Shown piece by piece: positions 31,138 to 47,809 of a DNA stretch of 48,245 nt. Within the stretch, counting starts at the first letter, position 1. Every line of letters starts with the position of its first letter. Under the pieces are notes generated by a model. It made no database searches, had not been told where the DNA came from, and was given only the letters and a program-made list of their open reading frames with translations. Made by a program: the position numbers and the translations under genes. Origin of the DNA: Sedimentitalea arenosa (lineage in GTDB: Bacteria > Pseudomonadota > Alphaproteobacteria > Rhodobacterales > Rhodobacteraceae); NCBI RefSeq assembly GCF_016428585.1, contig NZ_JAELVR010000016.1, positions 1 through 48,245 of the forward strand, read 5' to 3'.

Positions 31138-32403
31138 ATGCGCAGAGTGGTCGTTACAGGGCTGGGGCTGGTCACTCCCCTGGCAAGCGGTGTCGAAGAA
31201 AGCTGGAGCCGCATTCTGGATGGTCAGTCGGGTGCCGGACCGATCACGCTGTTTGATGCGGCGGCGAGCGGCGTCACCACGACCTATGCCTGCGAAGTGC
31301 CCAAGGGTGACGGCAGCGATGGCACCTTCAACGCCAACGACTGGCTGGAGCCCAAGGAACAACGCAAGATTGACGATTTCATCCTGTATGGGATCGCGGC
31401 GGCCGAAATGGCCGTCAGGGATGCGGGATGGACGCCGGACGACGAGGCGGATCGACTGCGCACTGGCGTGATGATCGGGTCGGGCATCGGCGGTTTGAAT
31501 TCGATCGCGGACACGGCCGTGATGATCAAGGAGCGCGGTCCGCGCCGCGTGTCTCCCTTCTTCATCCCCGGTGCATTGATCAACCTGATTTCGGGTCAGG
31601 TCAGTATCCGCTTCGGATTCAAGGGGCCGAACCATTCGGTCGTCACGGCCTGCTCGACCGGAGCTCATGCGATCGGGGATGCCTCGCGCCTGATCAAGTT
31701 CGGAGATGCGGATGTGATGATCGCCGGTGGTGCCGAGGCGGCCATATGCGAGATCGGGATTGCCGGTTTCAACGCTTGCAAGGCGCTGAGCACGAAATTT
31801 GGAGACAATCCGCAGGCGGCGAGCCGCCCCTATGACAGGGACCGTGATGGTTTCGTGATGGGCGAGGGAGCCGGTGTGGTCGTCCTTGAGGAATACGAGC
31901 ATGCCAAGGCGCGTGGCGCGCGGATCTATGCCGAAGTACTTGGATATGGTTTGTCGGGAGATGCCTATCACATCACGGCGCCGTCCGAGGATGGCGAGGG
32001 CGGTGAGCGGTCGATGCGCGCCGCACTCGGACATGCGGGGCTCGAGCCCAAGGACGTGGATTACATCAATGCGCATGGCACCAGCACCATGGCGGATACG
32101 ATCGAGTTGGGCGCGGTCGAGCGGATGATGGGCGAGGCCGCCGGCAAGGTCACGATGTCTTCGACGAAATCTGCCACCGGGCACCTTCTGGGGGCGGCCG
32201 GTGCGATCGAGGCGATCTTTTCGATCCTCGCGATCCGCGATCAGGTCGCGCCGCCGACGATCAACCTCGACAACCCGGCTGTGGACACGTCCGTCGACCT
32301 GGCGCCGAACGCCAAGCGCGAGCGTGAGATCAACGTCGCCCTGTCCAATTCCTTCGGCTTCGGCGGGACCAATGCCAGCGTCGTGTTCGGGAAACTTGGG
32401 TGA
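31138..32403 (+). CDS. fabF: 3-oxoacyl-ACP synthase II
   Basis: The ATG at 31138 gives 421 residues and starts MRRVVVTGLGLVTPLA. The condensing enzyme triad is present: Cys172 in TACSTGAHAIG, His in NAHGTSTMADTIE, and His in KSATGHLLGAAGAIEA. It elongates acyl-ACP with malonyl-ACP. The stop overlaps the mltG start by 1 base (TGATG), so the two are translationally coupled. Confidence 0.97.
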   Translation: MRRVVVTGLGLVTPLASGVEESWSRILDGQSGAGPITLFDAAASGVTTTYACEVPKGDGSDGTFNANDWLEPKEQRKIDDFILYGIAAAEMAVRDAGWTPDDEADRLRTGVMIGSGIGGLNSIADTAVMIKERGPRRVSPFFIPGALINLISGQVSIRFGFKGPNHSVVTACSTGAHAIGDASRLIKFGDADVMIAGGAEAAICEIGIAGFNACKALSTKFGDNPQAASRPYDRDRDGFVMGEGAGVVVLEEYEHAKARGARIYAEVLGYGLSGDAYHITAPSEDGEGGERSMRAALGHAGLEPKDVDYINAHGTSTMADTIELGAVERMMGEAAGKVTMSSTKSATGHLLGAAGAIEAIFSILAIRDQVAPPTINLDNPAVDTSVDLAPNAKREREINVALSNSFGFGGTNASVVFGKLG

Positions 32404-33557
32404 TGTGGCGCAGCCTCGCCTCGAACATGCTGACCTTTCTGGTGGTGGGGCTGTTCCTTCTGGTCGGCGTCGTCATTTGGGGGCAGTCGCAATACACCGC
32501 GCAGGGACCGCTTGAGGATGCGATCTGTCTGCGGGTCGAACGTGGGTCGAACATGGGGGCGGTCAGTCGCGAGCTCGAGGCGCAAGGTGCAGTTCGGGAC
32601 GGTCTGATCTTTCGTCTGGGCGCGGATTACACCGAAAAGTCACAGCAGTTGAAGGCGGGCAGCTTTCTGATCCAGCCGGGCGCGTCGATGGAAGAAATCG
32701 TGGACCAGGTGACACGGGGGGGGGCAAGCACCTGTGGCACGGAGATCGTGTATCGCGTCGGGGTCACCCAGACCGAGGCGCGGGTCCGTGAACTGAACCC
32801 GTCAACGAACGAGTTCGTCGAGTTGGTCGCCTTTGACCCCACGGCTGAGGACGCGCCTGACGTGTTCGCCGAGAAACGCGCGCAACCGGACACGCGCTAT
32901 CGCATCGCCTTGGCGGAAGGTGTGACCAGCTGGCAGGTGGTCGAGGCGTTGAAGGCGATGGACATGCTGACCGGCGAGGTGGCGGAAGTTCCTCCGGAGG
33001 GGATGCTGGCACCCGACAGCTATGAGGTTGTGCCGGGCGTGGCGCGCGAAACGGTATTGGCCCGGATGCAAGAAGTTCAGCAGCTGCGCATCAATGCCGC
33101 GTGGGAGAGCCGTCAGGACGGGCTGCCGCTGGACAGCCCTGAAGAAATGCTGATCCTGGCATCGATCATCGAGAAGGAGACCGGCGTGCCCGAGGAGCGG
33201 GGTCAGGTCGCGAGCGTATTCGTGAATCGCTTGCGCCAGGGCATGCGCTTGCAGACCGACCCGACGGTGATCTATGGAATCACACGGGGGCAGGGCGTTC
33301 TGGGGCGCGGATTGCGGCAGAGCGAACTGCGCGGGCGCACAGCCTGGAACACCTATGTCATCGATGGCCTGCCGCCGACCCCAATCGCCAACCCGGGAGT
33401 CGCGAGCCTGCAGGCTGCGGTTGCGCCCGAAAACACGGATTTCGTCTTTTTCGTGGCGGATGGTTCTGGAGGCCACGCTTTCGCGCGGACGCTGGAAGAG
33501 CACAACCAAAACGTTGCAAAGTGGCGCGAGATCGAGGCGGAGCGCGCGAACAACTAG
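32403..33557 (+). CDS. mltG: Endolytic murein transglycosylase MltG
   Basis: The ATG at 32403 shares a base with the fabF stop and gives 384 residues; GTG at 32400 is also possible. One membrane helix (LTFLVVGLFLLVGVVIW) anchors it. A LysM-like region (LRVERGSNMGAVSRELEAQGAV) is followed by the YceG domain with the catalytic Glu in ASIIEKETGVPEERGQVA, then NRLRQGMRLQTDPTVIYG and NTYVIDGLPPTPIANPG. It cuts nascent peptidoglycan inside the glycan strand and is thought to end strand growth. Promoter elements of the GTA cluster begin 32 bases after its stop. Confidence 0.95.
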   Translation: MWRSLASNMLTFLVVGLFLLVGVVIWGQSQYTAQGPLEDAICLRVERGSNMGAVSRELEAQGAVRDGLIFRLGADYTEKSQQLKAGSFLIQPGASMEEIVDQVTRGGASTCGTEIVYRVGVTQTEARVRELNPSTNEFVELVAFDPTAEDAPDVFAEKRAQPDTRYRIALAEGVTSWQVVEALKAMDMLTGEVAEVPPEGMLAPDSYEVVPGVARETVLARMQEVQQLRINAAWESRQDGLPLDSPEEMLILASIIEKETGVPEERGQVASVFVNRLRQGMRLQTDPTVIYGITRGQGVLGRGLRQSELRGRTAWNTYVIDGLPPTPIANPGVASLQAAVAPENTDFVFFVADGSGGHAFARTLEEHNQNVAKWREIEAERANN

Positions 33558-33588
33558 TCTTCCGGTGCGGCGCTCAGGTTCGTAGGAC

Positions 33589-33603
33589 TTAACTTTTCAT
33601 TAA
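33589..33603. promoter_or_regulatory. CtrA-type binding site upstream of the GTA cluster
   Basis: TTAACTTTTCATTAA matches the full CtrA consensus TTAA-N7-TTAA exactly. It is centred about 52 bases before the -35 of the GTA promoter. CtrA is known to be needed for GTA gene expression in Rhodobacter capsulatus and for related GTA control in other Rhodobacterales; direct binding here is inference. Confidence 0.6.
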
Positions 33604-33607
33604 TGAT

Positions 33608-33617
33608 ACCGTACGGT
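33608..33617. promoter_or_regulatory. 10-bp palindrome ACCGTACGGT in the GTA promoter region
   Basis: A perfect palindrome between the CtrA-type site and the -35. The identical 10-mer occurs again at 35438-35447, in the gap between terminase and portal genes. It may bind a GTA regulator such as a GafA-like or other dimeric protein (inference). Confidence 0.4.
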
Positions 33618-33634
33618 TAGCGGATCTGGCCGTT

Positions 33635-33644
33635 GCGAATTCGC
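33635..33644. promoter_or_regulatory. 10-bp palindrome GCGAATTCGC abutting the GTA -35
   Basis: A perfect palindrome ending on the base before TTGACA. A smaller perfect one, GCGATCGC (33653-33660), lies in the spacer. Such positions suit a repressor or an activator touching sigma. Confidence 0.4.
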
Positions 33645-33673
33645 TTGACAATGCGATCGCACTCGTCTATAGG
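33645..33673 (+). promoter_or_regulatory. Near-consensus sigma-70 promoter upstream of GTA g1
   Basis: TTGACA (33645-33650) and TATAGG (33668-33673) are separated by 17 bases. This is the best sigma-70 match I saw in the window. Initiation near 33680 would give a transcript that meets a terminator hairpin at once. Confidence 0.7.
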
Positions 33674-33696
33674 TTGTGCCATGCTAGGAGAAGTGA

Positions 33697-33768
33697 ATGA
33701 ACGGCCGTGGGATCGTATCCCATAGGCCGTTTTTTCATGTCTTTCGTGCGGAGAGTGATCACGCATGA
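33697..33768 (+). CDS. Possible 24-codon leader peptide before GTA g1
   Basis: An ATG at 33697 with AGGAG 7-11 bases upstream opens a 23-residue frame, MNGRGIVSHRPFFHVFRAES and three more residues, with a TGA at 33766-33768, 14 bases before g1. Most of it overlaps the terminator hairpin, so ribosome movement could open or form the stem. Being short, it may be fortuitous; the ribosome site and its position are the only support. Confidence 0.35.
   Translation: MNGRGIVSHRPFFHVFRAESDHA
33700..33735 (+). terminator. Intrinsic terminator / attenuator in the GTA leader
   Basis: AACGGCC-g-TGGGA, loop TCGTA, TCCCA-ta-GGCCGTT is followed by six T residues. It is a 12-bp interrupted stem ending ~48 bases before g1. 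Either it ends mltG read-through, or it attenuates the GTA promoter ~30 bases upstream, or it defines a small RNA of ~55 bases. Confidence 0.8.
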
Positions 33769-33782
33769 GGCAATGAGCAAAT

Positions 33783-34109
33783 ATGACTTTGATTACCCCG
33801 GACGAGTGCGTTTCGAGATCGGCTGATGTTTACAAGTCGCTTCTCGAGTCACTTTCAAGATTGCGGGAGCAGGCGGAAGACCTGCGGAAGCAACTGGAAG
33901 CCGGGGAGGATGCGGATTTAGCGGACGGTAGTAAGCGGGTCTTGACGGTCGACAGGCTGGTCATGTCCTGCCAGAGAGCGGAGATTATCCTTGCGGAGCA
34001 GCAAAACAGAAAACTTGGCATCGTCAGGGGCGGATACGCCCTCGACCTCGACGCCGCCCGACATGAGGTCGGGTGCCGTCTGGCTCGCCTCCGCAGATGC
34101 GGAGACTAG
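33783..34109 (+). CDS. g1: GTA gene 1, small terminase subunit
   Basis: This 108-residue protein, MTLITPDECVSRSADVYK..., is rich in charged helices (SLLESLSRLREQAEDLRKQL, a likely coiled coil). In R. capsulatus g1 was shown to be the GTA small terminase that helps package host DNA. Unlike phage TerS there is no clear DNA-binding helix-turn-helix, matching the non-specific packaging of GTAs. It overlaps the large terminase gene by 47 bases. The ribosome site is weak. Confidence 0.85.
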   Translation: MTLITPDECVSRSADVYKSLLESLSRLREQAEDLRKQLEAGEDADLADGSKRVLTVDRLVMSCQRAEIILAEQQNRKLGIVRGGYALDLDAARHEVGCRLARLRRCGD

Positions 34110-35406
34110 GGAAACATTTCTAGATGACATCGGAGAGGGAGGGCTTTGCGCCCTCCCTTTTCTTTTCGAGTTCTGGGCCATGGACCATCAGTTGCCGCCC
34201 GAAGGCGACTGGCGGACATGGGTCATCATGGGTGGGCGCGGTGCGGGCAAGACCCGGGCCGGTGCAGAATGGGTGCGTGCGCAGGTCGAAGGATCCCGAC
34301 CGCTGGATCCCGGTCCCAAGAGCAGAGTTGCCCTGATCGGCGAGACCTATGATCAGGTCAGAGACGTGATGGTCCATGGCGACAGCGGCATCCTTGCCTG
34401 TTCGCCCCCGGATCGGCGCCCCACCTGGAAGGCGAGCGAACGCAAGCTTGTCTGGGAAAACGGAGCCGAAGCGAAAGCCTATTCGGCGCAAGACCCGGAA
34501 GGGCTGCGAGGACCACAATTCGATGCGGCCTGGGTGGATGAGCTTGCGAAGTGGAACCGGGCGCGGGACACATGGGACATGCTGCAATTCGCGTTACGGC
34601 TTGGAGACTTGCCCCAGGTCTGCGCGACGACGACCCCGCGCAACGTGGGGCTACTGAAAGAACTGCTTCAGCTGCCGTCGACTGTCGTGAGCCATGCGCC
34701 GACCGAAGCCAACCGGGCGAACCTCGCGGCGAGTTTTCTCGAGGAGGTGAAAGCGCGCTATGCCGGCACCCGGTTGGGGCGTCAGGAACTGGACGGAATT
34801 CTTCTGGCGGATGCCGACGGGGCCTTGTGGACGACGGAGATGCTGCAGGCTGCACGAGTCGCGCATGTGCCGTCGCTCGACCGGGTGATCGTTGCGCTCG
34901 ACCCTGCGGTGAGTTCCGGTGCCGGATCGGATGAATGCGGGATCGTCGTGGTCGGTGCTCAGACAAAGGGTCCGCCTCAGGATTGGCGGGCGTTCGTGCT
35001 GGAGGATTGCACGGTCAGAGGCGTCGGACCGACAGGTTGGGCACGCGCGGCCATCGCGGCAATGGATCGTCATGGCGCCGAGCGGCTGGTGGCCGAGGTC
35101 AACCAAGGCGGGCAGTTGGTCGAGGAGGTCATCAGGCAGGTCGATCCGCTGGTCCCATACAAGGCCGTGCATGCGGCGCGCGGCAAGTCCGCGCGCGCCG
35201 AGCCCGTAGCCGCGCTCTATGAGCAGGGTCGGGTGCGCCACGTGCGGGGGCTGGTCGACCTTGAAGAACAGATGTGCCTGATGACGCCGCGTGGCTACGA
35301 GGGTCAGGGGTCGCCCGACCGGCTGGATGCACTGGTCTGGGGCTTGCACGAACTGATGATCGCTCCGGCGGCGGTCTATCGTCAACCCCGCCTGCGAGTG
35401 CTCTGA
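34063..35406 (+). CDS. g2: GTA gene 2, large terminase subunit
   Basis: I choose the ATG at 34063 (447 residues); an earlier ATG at 33991 in the same frame would overlap g1 more. Walker A is IMGGRGAGKTRAGAEW (K63), Walker B is FDAAWVDELAKW (D159, E160), and the ATPase coupling motif is CATTTPRNVG. The RNase-H-type nuclease has ALDPAVSSG and the late acidic DRLDALVWGL. It pumps DNA into the GTA head. The cut is headful and not sequence-specific in GTAs. Confidence 0.95.
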   Translation: MRSGAVWLASADAETRETFLDDIGEGGLCALPFLFEFWAMDHQLPPEGDWRTWVIMGGRGAGKTRAGAEWVRAQVEGSRPLDPGPKSRVALIGETYDQVRDVMVHGDSGILACSPPDRRPTWKASERKLVWENGAEAKAYSAQDPEGLRGPQFDAAWVDELAKWNRARDTWDMLQFALRLGDLPQVCATTTPRNVGLLKELLQLPSTVVSHAPTEANRANLAASFLEEVKARYAGTRLGRQELDGILLADADGALWTTEMLQAARVAHVPSLDRVIVALDPAVSSGAGSDECGIVVVGAQTKGPPQDWRAFVLEDCTVRGVGPTGWARAAIAAMDRHGAERLVAEVNQGGQLVEEVIRQVDPLVPYKAVHAARGKSARAEPVAALYEQGRVRHVRGLVDLEEQMCLMTPRGYEGQGSPDRLDALVWGLHELMIAPAAVYRQPRLRVL

Positions 35407-43439: not shown

Positions 43440-43889
43440 ATGGGGGATCGTGAGGAAGTCGTTCGCATCGCAAAGACCTGGATCGGAACGCCTTATCGTC
43501 ATCAGGCAGCTTGTCGTGGCGCAGGGACGGACTGCCTAGGCCTGGTGCGTGGTGTTTGGAGGCAGTTGTTCGGATGCGAACCCGAAGAGGTTCCGGCCTA
43601 TTCGATGGATTGGTCCGAACCTTCCGGCGACGAACAACTGTGGTTGTCGGCCCGCCGGCACCTGGTTGAAGTTCCAATGCACGAAGCCGCGCTTCAGCGG
43701 GGCGACGTGATCCTGTTTCGCATGCGTGATCAATCTGTAGCCAAGCACTTGGCAATCGTCTCCGCAACTGACGACAAGCCCGCCTTCATTCATGCGTATT
43801 CGAAGCACGGCGTTGTCGAAAGCGCTTTGAGCGCTTCGTGGATGAAGAAAATTGTTGCCCGATTCAAGTTTCCACTGGAGGTGGTCTGA
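43440..43889 (+). CDS. g14: GTA gene 14, NlpC/P60 cell-wall peptidase
   Basis: This 149-residue NlpC/P60 protein has its catalytic Cys in GTDCLGLVRGVWRQLFG (C32) and His in VAKHLAIVS. IGTPYRHQAACRGAG is the normal lead-in. It sits at the tail tip and probably opens peptidoglycan of the recipient cell. It starts directly after the g13 stop. Confidence 0.93.
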   Translation: MGDREEVVRIAKTWIGTPYRHQAACRGAGTDCLGLVRGVWRQLFGCEPEEVPAYSMDWSEPSGDEQLWLSARRHLVEVPMHEAALQRGDVILFRMRDQSVAKHLAIVSATDDKPAFIHAYSKHGVVESALSASWMKKIVARFKFPLEVV

Positions 43890-46800
43890 TGGCTACTGTT
43901 GTTCTTTCTGCTGCAGGTGCAGCACTTGGTGGTTCGATCGGTGGCACAGTGGCCGGTCTATCTACAGCGGTGATTGGGCGCGCTGTTGGAGCGACATTTG
44001 GGCAGGTGATCGATCAGCGTCTGTTGGGCCAAGGCGCTGAAGCTGTTGAAACCGGGAAAGTCGATCGGTTCCGTCTGACCCAAACGGGCGAAGGCAATCC
44101 GATCGCCCAAGTCTTCGGGCGCTCCCGAGTGGGTGGTCAAGTGATTTGGGCTTCGGACTTTCGTGAAGAATCCACTACCAGCGGCGGTGGCAAAGGTGGA
44201 AGCAGTTCGCCCACAACCACGACCTATAGCTACAGTGTTTCGTTGGCTGTTGCGATATGTGAAGGCGAAATATCCACGGTCGGCAGAGTCTGGGCTGACG
44301 GCGAGGAAATTGCCCGTCGTGATTTGAACATGCAAATCTACACTGGTTCGCAAGAGCAGCTTCCCGATCCTACCATCGAGGCGATCGAAGGGCGTGGTCA
44401 GGTGCCGGCGTATCGCGGAACGGCCTATGTCGTCCTTGAAGACCTGGCTCTGGAGCGTTTCGGGAACCGGGTTCCGCAGTTTTCGTTCGAGGTGGTGAGG
44501 ACAGAGCAGCGCGACTCCTCGACTTTTTCGGAAGACCTTCCGCAGTTGATCAAGGGCGTCGCCCTGGTTCCTGGTACCGGTGAGTATGCACTGGCCACCA
44601 CTCCCGTTCACTACTCGAAGGGACCGGGAAGCAATTGGGCGGCCAACACGAACAGCCCGATGGGCCGAACAGATTTTCTGGCGTCCTTGGCACAGCTCCG
44701 GGAAGAACTGCCGAACTGTTCTGCTGCATCCTTGGTCGTTTCCTGGTTCGGAAGCGACCTGAGATGTGATCGTTGTACGATCAAGCCGAAGGTCGAGCGC
44801 AGCGAGTTCGATGGGGGCAATATGCCTTGGAGCGTCGCTGGCGTTTCGCGATCCGCGGCGCAGACCGTCCCCCGAAAGAATGGCCAACCTGTATATGGTG
44901 GTACCACGGCCGATGCAGCCGTCGTTGAAGCCATCCGGCACATGAGGGCATCTGGTCAACGAGTCATGTTCTATCCGTTCATCCTGATGGATCAGCTTGC
45001 TGACAACCGTTTACAAGATCCCTGGACCGGTTCTGATAGTCAGCCAGCGTTGCCTTGGAGGGGCAGGATCACCCTTTCCTCGGCCCCGCCGCGCGCGGAT
45101 TCTGCAGATGGTTCGGAAATGGCCGACGATCAAGTCCGGAGTTTCTTTGGTGAAGCCAAGGCATCGGACTTTCAGATCCTTGATGGGTCCGTACGCTACG
45201 ATGGTCCAGCCGAGTGGGGCATGCGGAGGTTCATCCTGCACTACGCGGCTCTATGTGCTGCGGCTGGCGGCGTATCTTCGTTCTGCATCGGGTCCGAAAT
45301 GAGAGGTTTGACGCAGATCCGGGGAGCGACCGGTTTTCCAGCTGTGGACGCACTCAAGGAGCTTGCAGCCGAAGCTCGCGCCTTGCTCGGACCGAAGACC
45401 AAGATCGGGTATGCGGCTGACTGGTCGGAGTACTTCGGCTACCAGCCACAGGATGGTTCCGGCGACCGATACTTCCATCTTGATCCGCTTTGGTCGGATG
45501 CGAACATCGATTTCATCGGTATTGACAACTACATGCCGCTCTCGGATTGGCGCGACGAGGACAAGCACGCGGATGCGGAATGGAAATCTGTTTATTCGCC
45601 AGACTATCTTCGCGCCAACATTGAGGGTGGTGAAGGTTTTGACTGGTTCTACGAGTCACTGGAGGCGGCTTCGGCTCAGGTCAGAGTCCCTATTGAAGAT
45701 CTGGAACACAATGAGCCGTGGATCTGGCGATACAAGGATCTCCGTAACTGGTGGAGCAACGAGCACCATGAACGGATTTCTGGAGTCCGACAGGCTACTG
45801 CAACTGGTTGGGTTCCGCATTCGAAACCAATTTGGTTCACAGAACTTGGCTGTGCCGCCTTGGACAAGGCAACGAATCAACCCAACAAGTTTCTTGATCC
45901 CAAATCGTCTGAATCGAGCTTGCCCAAATTCTCCAACGGACTGCGGGATGACCTGATCCAGCGTCATTACCTGCAGGCCATGCTCGGCTATTGGAGCGAC
46001 GACGCCAACAATCCAGCCTCTGATCTGTATGAAGGTCGAATGATCGACATGCAGAACGCCTATGTATGGGCGTGGGATACGCGTCCATTTCCAAGGTTTC
46101 CAAACAATCTTGGTTTGTGGGAAGATGGGAAAAACTATGCGCGTGGTCATTGGCTCAATGGACGAGTCGGTTCGCGCAGTCTCGCTTCGGTGGTAGAGGA
46201 GATCTGCCTCAAGTCAGATCTTAAGCAAATCGACACCTCACGGCTATTCGGTGTGGTGAGAGGATACACTGTCGATCAGGTCACAGATGCACGAAGTGCT
46301 TTGCAGCCTTTGATGCTGAGGTTTGCTTTCGACGCGATCGAACGGGATGGAGTTCTTAAATTCGTTTCTCGGGACGGAACGAACGTACAGACAATCGATA
46401 GCAACGAATTGGCAGAATGCGCTGACATCGAGGGCTTGGTGCAGTTCAAACGAGATGCCAACGCCGAGGTGGCGGGACGGGTCAGAGTTCGATTTCTGCA
46501 ATCCGAAGGTGACCACGATATTGTCTCGGAGGAAGCGGTTCTGCCGGACACTTCAACTCATTCTGTCACGACGAATGATCTCGCTTTGTCGATGACACGT
46601 GCCGAGGGCCGCCAGGTCGCAGAACGATGGCTTGCTGAATCGCGTGTCTCCCGCGATTCAGCAAGCTTTGCGCTGCCGCCATCGAAGATCGGGATTGGAG
46701 CGGGTGATATCGTGCGGTTTTCGAATAGTGAAAACCAACCCGAAGCACTCTTCAGGGTCGATCGTATCGAACTCGGGGAATTGCAGATCGCTGAAGCTGT

Positions 46801-47809
46801 ACGTATCGAGAGCGAGGTTTACCTGCCTTCTGAAATGGCAACAGACGTGCCAAGTGTGAAAGCCTTTGTACCTCCCACTCCTGTTTTTCCACTCTTTCTC
46901 GATTTGCCGCTGATGACGGGGGATGAAAAGCCGCACGCGCCTCACTTGGCGATTACGGCTCAACCGTGGCCTGGGGCTGTCGCGGTCTATGCATCGGAGG
47001 CGGATGAAAACTATCGTATGAGCGAAATCGTTCCGCGGAGATCTGTCGTTGGGCAAACAGAGTCCATCCTTGCGAGAGCTACGCCAGGACTCTGGGACGA
47101 GTCCGTTGGGGTACAGGTCAAGCTTCTGAGTGGTGGGTTGGAGTCACGATCAGCCGATTCTGTTCTTAGCGGAGCCAACCTTGCAGCCATCGGCGACGGC
47201 AGTTCGCAAAATTGGGAACTGGTCCAGTTCAGGACCGCAGAATTGATTGAGAAGGACACGTATCTCTTGAGGAGTCTCTTGAGAGGGCAGCTCGGTACTG
47301 ACGCTGCAATGAAAGATGTCTGGCCCAAAGGCTCGTGGTTCGTGTTGTTGGATGATGCACCTCAACAGATCGGTTTGAACAGTGTGCAACGTCGTCGGGC
47401 AAGGCACTACAGAATTGGCCCGGCTCAGAGTCGCTATGACGATCCTTCGTTCCAACACTTGGTTGAAACCTTCGATGGAGTTGGCCTGCGGCCTTACTCG
47501 CCATGTCATATCGAGTGCAAAGAGGCTGGTAGCGGAGACTTGGTTTTCGAGTGGATTCGAAGGACGCGTATCAATGGTGACAGTTGGGATCTAGTCGATG
47601 TGCCAATTGGGGAAGACAAAGAGCAATATCTTGTTCGGGTTGCTCAAGGAGATCGTGTGCTTCGCGAAGAATTCGTTGAAACCAGCTCTTGGACTTACCT
47701 TTCATCCTTGCGAAACGGTGACGGTCTGTCCGGTGCTCTTCGCTTTGAAGTCGCTCAGGTCTCGTCGATTTTTGGTCCTGGCCCGTTTTCATCATTGGCG
47801 ATCTCATAG
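43889..47809 (+). CDS. g15: GTA gene 15, host-specificity / megatron tail tip protein
   Basis: The ATG at 43889 overlaps the g14 stop by one base (CTGGAGGTGG upstream), giving 1306 residues; an earlier in-frame start at 43838 lies inside g14. The N-terminus has Gly/Ala-rich hydrophobic stretches (AAGAALGGSIGGTVAG). A GTA TIM-barrel-like domain spans ~400-760 (SSFCIGSEMRGLTQIRGATG, NIDFIGIDNYMPLSDWRDED, PIWFTELGCAALDKATNQPN). A phage tail tip attachment domain and C-terminal receptor-contacting parts follow. It anchors side and tip fibres. Base composition is lower in GC than in the early GTA genes. A 15-bp perfect inverted repeat lies inside the frame at 46630-46666. Confidence 0.94.
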   Translation: MATVVLSAAGAALGGSIGGTVAGLSTAVIGRAVGATFGQVIDQRLLGQGAEAVETGKVDRFRLTQTGEGNPIAQVFGRSRVGGQVIWASDFREESTTSGGGKGGSSSPTTTTYSYSVSLAVAICEGEISTVGRVWADGEEIARRDLNMQIYTGSQEQLPDPTIEAIEGRGQVPAYRGTAYVVLEDLALERFGNRVPQFSFEVVRTEQRDSSTFSEDLPQLIKGVALVPGTGEYALATTPVHYSKGPGSNWAANTNSPMGRTDFLASLAQLREELPNCSAASLVVSWFGSDLRCDRCTIKPKVERSEFDGGNMPWSVAGVSRSAAQTVPRKNGQPVYGGTTADAAVVEAIRHMRASGQRVMFYPFILMDQLADNRLQDPWTGSDSQPALPWRGRITLSSAPPRADSADGSEMADDQVRSFFGEAKASDFQILDGSVRYDGPAEWGMRRFILHYAALCAAAGGVSSFCIGSEMRGLTQIRGATGFPAVDALKELAAEARALLGPKTKIGYAADWSEYFGYQPQDGSGDRYFHLDPLWSDANIDFIGIDNYMPLSDWRDEDKHADAEWKSVYSPDYLRANIEGGEGFDWFYESLEAASAQVRVPIEDLEHNEPWIWRYKDLRNWWSNEHHERISGVRQATATGWVPHSKPIWFTELGCAALDKATNQPNKFLDPKSSESSLPKFSNGLRDDLIQRHYLQAMLGYWSDDANNPASDLYEGRMIDMQNAYVWAWDTRPFPRFPNNLGLWEDGKNYARGHWLNGRVGSRSLASVVEEICLKSDLKQIDTSRLFGVVRGYTVDQVTDARSALQPLMLRFAFDAIERDGVLKFVSRDGTNVQTIDSNELAECADIEGLVQFKRDANAEVAGRVRVRFLQSEGDHDIVSEEAVLPDTSTHSVTTNDLALSMTRAEGRQVAERWLAESRVSRDSASFALPPSKIGIGAGDIVRFSNSENQPEALFRVDRIELGELQIAEAVRIESEVYLPSEMATDVPSVKAFVPPTPVFPLFLDLPLMTGDEKPHAPHLAITAQPWPGAVAVYASEADENYRMSEIVPRRSVVGQTESILARATPGLWDESVGVQVKLLSGGLESRSADSVLSGANLAAIGDGSSQNWELVQFRTAELIEKDTYLLRSLLRGQLGTDAAMKDVWPKGSWFVLLDDAPQQIGLNSVQRRRARHYRIGPAQSRYDDPSFQHLVETFDGVGLRPYSPCHIECKEAGSGDLVFEWIRRTRINGDSWDLVDVPIGEDKEQYLVRVAQGDRVLREEFVETSSWTYLSSLRNGDGLSGALRFEVAQVSSIFGPGPFSSLAIS
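46630..46666 (+). repeat. 15-bp perfect inverted repeat inside g15
   Basis: GCTTGCTGAATCGCG (46630-46644), a 7-base spacer TGTCTCC, and CGCGATTCAGCAAGC (46652-46666) are exact complements. It encodes part of RWLAESRVSRDSASFAL, so the symmetry is within translated sequence. There is no T run after it. Confidence 0.85.

Follow-up and report, generated by a model that had tools for sequence, protein, structure and literature searches.

A conserved terminator-like hairpin between the promoter and first gene of a Rhodobacterales gene transfer agent cluster points to control after initiation

At which step is a gene transfer agent (GTA) cluster switched on? RcGTA, the reference gene transfer agent, is made by only a small part of cells. 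The Sedimentitalea arenosa DNA analyzed here (48,245 nucleotides; the window) carries a Rhodobacterales-type GTA cluster spanning 33783 to about 47800, in which Pfam matches place portal, protease and capsid after the terminase and identify a GTA_TIM tail protein at 43838-47809. Gene g1 (33783..34109, plus strand) occupies the small terminase position and was recognized by tblastn against relatives, with no Pfam match, while the large terminase g2 (33991..35406 from its first possible start, plus strand) matches Pfam Terminase_6N and 6C. The upstream neighbor is mltG (YceG-like; 32400..33557, plus strand; Pfam PF02618, E 5.3e-76), and the 226-base gap between mltG and g1 contains the promoter and the hairpins described below. 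In two related loci mltG is distant (2804 bases in L012 and 1566 in L034), yet the element still lies beside g1.

The initial annotation read this gap as the control region of the cluster, with direct CtrA control plus at least one dimeric regulator acting at palindromes. Every element it listed is where it was said to be: TTAACTTTTCATTAA, ACCGTACGGT, GCGAATTCGC, TTGACA, a 17-base spacer containing GCGATCGC, and TATAGG. The observation is correct but incomplete, as it missed the structured part at 33690-33769, where two hairpins, the first of them terminator-like, are found together with an outer helix. The terminator-like hairpin is the best conserved part of the region, and its position between the promoter and g1 points to control after initiation.

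For comparison of the gap we used 80 named loci from the order, or 81 with the window. TTGAC, followed within the allowed distance by a leader word resembling GCTAGAAGA, occurred in 68 of the 81, and removal of two loci at contig ends (L074 and L081) left 66. The 13 loci lacking the TTGAC-plus-leader pattern stayed outside the alignment; three of them were later found at E <1e-8 by R1, a covariance model of the promoter, leader and both hairpins. Because loci were chosen for TTGAC and part of the leader word, the conservation of these features across the 66 partly reflects that choice. Upstream motifs were counted in the 110 bp 5' of the -35 element and compared with 20 dinucleotide shuffles, in which relatedness remains. 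Covariation was counted on a MAFFT alignment made without regard to structure; RNAalifold returned no structure from this alignment, in which stems shift register in some rows. The structures were named by hand after viewing folds of the window and its relatives and the pairs were then counted, a procedure that leans towards them. Relatedness also remains in the structure controls, and some of the sequences tested had already served to define the structures.

The promoter itself is well preserved. Its -35 element, TTGACA (33645..33650; TTGAC being required in the 66-locus set), and its -10 element, TATAGG (33668..33673), which is kept in relatives, lie on the plus strand and are separated by the 17-base spacer (33651..33667). 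A strict sigma-70 scan, which demands T as the last -10 base, reported no promoter. We predict transcription to start at the A of a C-A step at 33681, 36 nt from TTGAC in 46/66 loci and 35-38 nt in 66/66. Just downstream is a conserved initially transcribed sequence (33683..33691, plus strand; GCTRGAAGA in relatives) whose +3 G and +5 T occur in all 66 loci, although this word helped select them. Conservation of the -35/-10 pair and start region supports reading this gap as the region that controls the GTA cluster.

The spacer, in contrast, does not carry a shared palindrome. At a fixed place within it, 42/66 loci have the word CGNACGGT with at most one mismatch, compared to 0.9 in shuffles. 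The window instead has the divergent GCGATCGC at 33653-33660, a word found in one of the 66 loci, the window alone. Inverted repeats in the spacer occur at chance level (24/66 loci against 22.9 in shuffles), and we rejected the spacer palindrome as a GafZ-type element because such repeats are no commoner than in shuffles. What could mark the spacer as a loading element is the CGNACGGT word, with palindromes at chance and the window's own word divergent.

Alignment of the mltG-g1 gap, which the initial annotation had proposed as a check, separates the upstream elements into those shared by part of the loci and those that are not. To the first kind belongs the CtrA-type box TTAA-N7-TTAA at 33589..33603 (no strand assigned), found with at most one mismatch in 32/66 loci (shuffles 3.4, maximum 11) and perfectly in 5/66 (shuffles 0.3). 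Thirteen of the 32 boxes lie at -58 to -54 relative to the -35 element, eight at -47 to -43, about one helical turn closer, and 11 elsewhere. The exact 15-mer TTAACTTTTCATTAA occurs once in the 3.98 Mb genome, a search for the exact word rather than for every TTAA-N7-TTAA site. A second box, ACCGTACGGT at 33608..33617 (no strand assigned), is a candidate regulator site: it recurs with at most two mismatches in 27/66 loci (shuffles 2.5), and its conserved form, CCGNACGGTTA, with at most one mismatch in 18/66 (shuffles 0.1). By comparison, the palindrome GCGAATTCGC (33635..33644, no strand assigned) is found exactly in one locus and with at most one mismatch in 3 of 66 (shuffles 0.9, maximum 3), and is confined to close relatives. 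LexA boxes were not above shuffles in the 66 loci. An IHF core with at most one mismatch was present in 25/66 loci, between 140 bp 5' and 40 bp 3' of the -35 element (shuffles 8.2, maximum 14); the best in the window has two mismatches. IHF is needed in Caulobacter, according to passages of PMC11150451.

Neither of the two shared boxes extends to the genus of R. capsulatus, where the 10 promoters read contain no good CtrA-type box (2-4 mismatches) and no good CCGNACGGTTA box (3-4 mismatches). Their absence agrees with a published binding experiment, in which purified CtrA did not bind the R. capsulatus GTA promoter and GafA did (passages of PMC6363796). Only part of the order may therefore use direct CtrA control; at the window's predicted site it is possible. 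A classical site, TTAACTATCAAGTAAC, precedes the gafA-like gene in the window's genome and has the form TTAAC-N6-GTAAC, as reported for R. capsulatus gafA in passages of PMC9638019.

These results bear directly on a model in which the cluster is controlled at initiation only, by CtrA and by a dimeric regulator at the palindromes. Such a model would account for the CtrA-type and ACCGTACGGT-like boxes, and GafA is reported to be dimeric in solution (passages of PMC9638019). Yet CtrA fails to bind in R. capsulatus, both boxes are missing from all ten promoters read in that genus, the palindromes GCGAATTCGC and GCGATCGC are not conserved, and the hairpin is left unexplained. We consider this model very unlikely.

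The hairpin lies on the plus strand at 33699..33732, with 15 pairs in the window (-22.1 kcal/mol, z -5.65), and none of 200 shuffles was as stable. Its U tract, TTTTTT at 33730..33735, follows at once, so that hairpin and U tract (33699-33735) would occupy +19 to +55 of the predicted transcript, ahead of g1. A GC-rich hairpin with a U tract directly behind it is the form of an intrinsic terminator, and we find this form in the window and in 52/66 loci. To be counted, a hairpin needed 7 or more pairs, a folding energy no weaker than -10 kcal/mol and TTTT immediately after it, a strict rule also satisfied by 16 of 623 random places taken from these loci. A looser version of the test is passed by 62/79 loci, compared to 6/79 on the minus strand and 61 of about 790 random windows. 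Most of the 14 loci that fail the strict test retain a hairpin with an eroded U tract, above all those of Leisingera, in which the hairpin is kept without it. A rule-based terminator scan listed none at 33200-34200, perhaps owing to a bulge.

Pairing in the hairpin is maintained across the 66 loci. In its core, helix 1, 89.2% of cells are paired and 10 of 12 pairs show double changes. A second conserved hairpin on the plus strand, 5' of g1 (33743..33769, arms 33743-33750 and 33762-33769), has 77.5% of cells paired and double changes in 6 of 8 pairs. Jointly, the two reach 84.4% of cells paired, compared to 38-48% with slid partners, and none of 500 shuffles reaches any of five measures. In the second hairpin, the 3' arm has GAG as its last bases and stops 13 bases short of the g1 ATG; it could influence g1 translation.

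An outer helix, P0, encloses the terminator-like hairpin and its U tract. Its 5' side (33690..33695, plus strand), at +10 to +15, pairs with the six bases just past the U tract (33736..33741, plus strand), in combinations such as GACATG/CATGTC, GAGATG/CGTCTC and GAAGTG/CATTTC; in the window 5 of 6 pairs form by inspection. Across the loci 88.0% of P0 cells are paired, against 31-59% when slid, and 26 cells show double changes, neither figure being reached by any of 500 shuffles. Four of the six P0 pairs have double changes, a count reached by 8/500 shuffles and by slid versions (1-5). In all, 0/500 shuffles match P0 on three of five measures. Rfam returned nothing above its gathering score; the one match at E up to 1 scored 16.4 bits against the 95 needed, and we rejected membership in that family.

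A structured leader need not be a terminator. It could instead be a 5' element that serves to stabilize the GTA mRNA or to direct its processing (an RNase III or RNase E site, for instance), or that tunes g1 translation, with GafA exerting control at initiation alone. The covarying P0, which encloses the U tract, the closeness of the second hairpin to the g1 start and the Leisingera hairpins that lack a U tract all suit this explanation. Against it, TTTT lies directly behind the stem in 52/66 loci, compared to 16/623 random places, and on balance it seems unlikely.

Attenuation, in which folding of the terminator would be governed by a short leader peptide or by an RNA switch instead of a polymerase-bound protein, was suggested by the predicted start base, which opens an ATG in 42/66 loci. 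In 17 of these 42 the near-leaderless frame stops within 15 codons, and 11/66 loci share a stop after 11 codons. However, in the other 24/66 the triplet is AAG, CAG, ACG, GCG or CTG, and in-frame stops are scattered from 5 to >78 codons, with only 20/66 loci overall having one within 15. With neither start codon nor frame kept, we rejected a conserved leader peptide. As for an RNA switch, the 18 nt ahead of the stem in the window seem too short to form a competing antiterminator hairpin, and by inspection they contain no stretch complementary to the 5' arm. Attenuation therefore strikes us as highly improbable.

The R1 model allowed us to follow the element beyond the aligned loci. Within the order it matched 225/292 genomes and 97/113 genera, and several of these survey loci lie on the same contigs as L007-L086 and are not independent of them. 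A single match was present in 213 of the 225 genomes, among the matches listed. The window's genome has one strong site (E 2.5e-32), and its next match (0.04) is this very site read on the opposite strand. Twelve genomes have several matches; judged by model coordinates, the extra ones are partial (as in L262) or on the reverse strand, save two full-length weak ones. The extra match in L260 was rejected as a GTA leader and is a gene-end terminator. In L261 (G166), the stretch at about 1200-1450 looks like a decayed duplicate of the GTA promoter and leader with the g1 start, away from the main cluster.

No R1 match was found in 67/292 genomes. Twenty such genomes with a terminase were read: a few have a degenerate leader or another hairpin with a T run (L242, L252 and L259), and in several nothing recognizable of the element was present. 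The promoter-leader element is thus common, not universal. A terminase screen was positive in 266/292 genomes and underestimates GTAs, since 15 of 20 listed terminase-negative genomes have an R1 match. At the level of the class, with E up to 0.001 and stricter filters, R1 matched 5/387 genomes, three of them in the window's family; the weak matches outside the family, L136 and L137, have no g1 or terminase match within 3 kb.

Among the best 30 R1 loci, g1 and terminase adjoin the element in all 30, and the terminase is truncated in two. Three loci from three genomes of two genera, L108 (G031), L110 (G201) and L134 (G006), have a terminase cut after its Walker B motif (DAAWVDE) and joined in frame to the central part of g15, beginning near residue 668. 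The junction is identical in all three, and leader and g1 precede it.

This gene setting speaks to a further alternative, namely that the element specifies an independent small RNA (about 55 nt) acting on targets of its own, to which GTA read-through would be secondary or for which GTA genes would use another start. The compact unit of promoter, RNA and terminator would be expected of such an RNA, as would the strong conservation of the 5' part outside the hairpins, which is partly due to selection of the loci. Against it, the element stands directly ahead of GTA g1 or terminase in the loci read, no Rfam family reaches its cut-off, and the R. capsulatus GTA start was placed in a probe bound by GafA (passages of PMC6363796). 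It counts as weak evidence that GTAs are absent from the main texts of small RNA studies in Ruegeria pomeroyi and Paracoccus denitrificans. We regard an independent small RNA as decidedly unlikely.

We located the corresponding element in R. capsulatus. The genome taken to be that of R. capsulatus has a capsid 100% identical to the PDB 6tb9 sequence, and the 3' parts of two RcGTA promoter primers, published in passages of PMC6854486, map to it. R1 detects the element at E 1.4e-19 at the locus and, genome-wide, as the sole match at 8.6e-18; it also matches 10/10 loci read from the genus. Between promoter and g1, R. capsulatus has its own hairpin and T run, AAGCGCCGCGGGTGACCGTGTGCGCTTTTTTC. This leader alone is less exceptional, with 2/200 shuffles folding as well (z -2.85).

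According to passages of PMC6363796, GafA binds only a probe covering 76-125 bp upstream of R. capsulatus g1, and the GTA start was placed within it. On the R. capsulatus sequence, this probe covers the spacer, the -10 element and about +1 to +19, shifting by a few bases with the choice of g1 ATG. The C-terminal part of GafA binds the same probe, while the N-terminal part binds specifically on both sides of it (passages of PMC9638019). GafA corresponds to Caulobacter GafY plus GafZ, and its C-terminal part is homologous to GafZ (passages of PMC11150451). GafZ needs an element between -35 and -10 and travels with RNA polymerase past terminators, and Tran and Le (2024) raised the possibility that GafA acts likewise as an anti-terminator (both in passages of PMC11150451).

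The anatomy of this region is well supported by the promoter layout, the terminator-like hairpin, its covariation, conservation across the order and the usual presence of one site per genome, all of which can be read from the DNA. As far as sequence alone can place it, the terminator-like hairpin sits 3' of a controlled promoter and 5' of the target genes, and a terminator directly downstream would be the substrate for a GafZ-like factor. We therefore propose a default-terminated promoter at which GafA lets polymerase pass, a switch of the phage late type. This proposal, which we judge somewhat probable, suggests that a conserved likely stop signal holds the cluster back until a regulator releases RNA polymerase.

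In the default-terminated promoter, RNA polymerase would start at about 33681 and stop within the U tract (33730-33735), the default product being a terminated transcript about 55 nt long. The GTA cluster would thus stay silent even when its promoter fires, and its expression would need a polymerase modified at the promoter to ignore terminators. GafA is the likely modifier, since its bound probe overlies the spacer, the -10 element and +1 to +19, and since GafZ, to which its C-terminal part corresponds, is an anti-terminator in Caulobacter. By analogy with Q-type anti-terminators, GafA would load on the conserved spacer, -10 element and initially transcribed sequence. After read-through, the leader could fold into a longer hairpin, through P0, and into the second hairpin ahead of g1; any role of these two structures would come at this stage. 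In D. shibae, a weak transient rise of the cluster's upstream part came before the GTA cluster was switched on (passages of PMC6473078), which fits default termination loosely.

Several observations count against the proposal: the 14/66 loci that fail the strict hairpin test, the 67/292 genomes with no R1 match, the rule-based scan that lists no terminator here, the 2/200 shuffles that fold as well as the R. capsulatus leader, the lack of a conserved spacer palindrome and the divergent spacer word of the window. In Caulobacter, moreover, the mapped terminator comes after the first gene. In addition, GafA reportedly works via the omega subunit of RNA polymerase, a subunit not detected with GafZ (passages of PMC11150451). 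A broader version is that, in most Rhodobacterales, the archetypal GTA is a transcription fuse, with GafA as a Q-like anti-terminator that must ride on polymerase to express the cluster in a few cells and the covarying leader RNA as the cis-acting part of the switch. We put this version forward tentatively, as one that may well not hold.

The window's genome has a candidate for the regulator, a gafA-like gene near lipA (G000:C22:51458-52633). Its protein resembles gp38 of Roseobacter phage RDJL Phi 1 (blastp 8e-17), and an adjoining ORF resembles gp36 (4e-5). The gp38 gene of this phage (L089 22762-23694, minus strand) lies near a phage ctrA. Neither phage RcapNL nor the 45,000 bases searched of RDJL Phi 1 (62,668 in all) gave an R1 match. 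Across the whole records, the leader word with at most two mismatches occurs five times in RDJL Phi 1 (twice in the reversed control) and once in RcapNL (three times in the control), and R1 again found nothing around these six places. A scan of both phages for TTGAC followed by a hairpin gave three places in RDJL Phi 1.

We also examined 80 of 83 IMG/VR stretches that contain the leader word (L138-L217). A strong R1 match was present in 43 of the 80, all 43 with a GTA-type terminase match (42 residues only in L154), and these appear to be GTA clusters filed as viruses. None of them showed a true phage. A phage ancestor of the leader thus did not surface in RcapNL, the searched part of RDJL Phi 1 or the listed IMG/VR stretches.

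If a stop signal does lie between promoter and first gene, a decisive control step would move to after initiation, and what a promoter fusion measures may depend on which side of the hairpin it ends. It would become possible to test GafA as an anti-terminator with a few reporters in a standard strain, and, if true, the GTAs of Caulobacter and Rhodobacterales would be united under one phage-derived principle of late-gene control.

The closest studied promoter is that of RcGTA with GafA (Fogg 2019, PMC6363796; Sherlock and Fogg 2022, PMC9638019), which has the same promoter and leader but lacks the window's CtrA-type box. Both papers present GafA as activating initiation and contacting the omega subunit of RNA polymerase; "terminator" is absent from the main text of PMC6363796, as are words in "terminat-" from that of PMC9638019. 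Within the main texts of open-licence PMC papers, we found no description of a terminator in an RcGTA-type leader.

The GTA promoter of Caulobacter crescentus, with GafY, IHF and GafZ, belongs to the same type of cluster and has a homologous regulator (passages of PMC11150451). It shares with the window a promoter-bound factor with an element between -35 and -10 and a terminator that blocks the cluster, both of which are predicted here. The terminators differ: in Caulobacter it consists of three 150-bp GC-rich repeats located past the first gene, with a leader of about 250 nt (passages of PMC11150451), whereas the window has, ahead of g1, a classical hairpin and U tract at +19 to +55. The Caulobacter palindrome has no conserved ZBE-like counterpart in the window's relatives.

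The same layout of promoter, short leader, intrinsic terminator and late structural genes is found in phage late promoters of the Q type, such as lambda pR'-tR' and that of phage 21, and with AlpA of Pseudomonas aeruginosa. Lambda tR' lies at about +194, so the window's predicted terminator is much closer to the start. The regulator here would be GafA instead of Q. In Q-type systems the loading site overlaps the promoter, a comparison that passages of PMC11150451 draw for GafZ.
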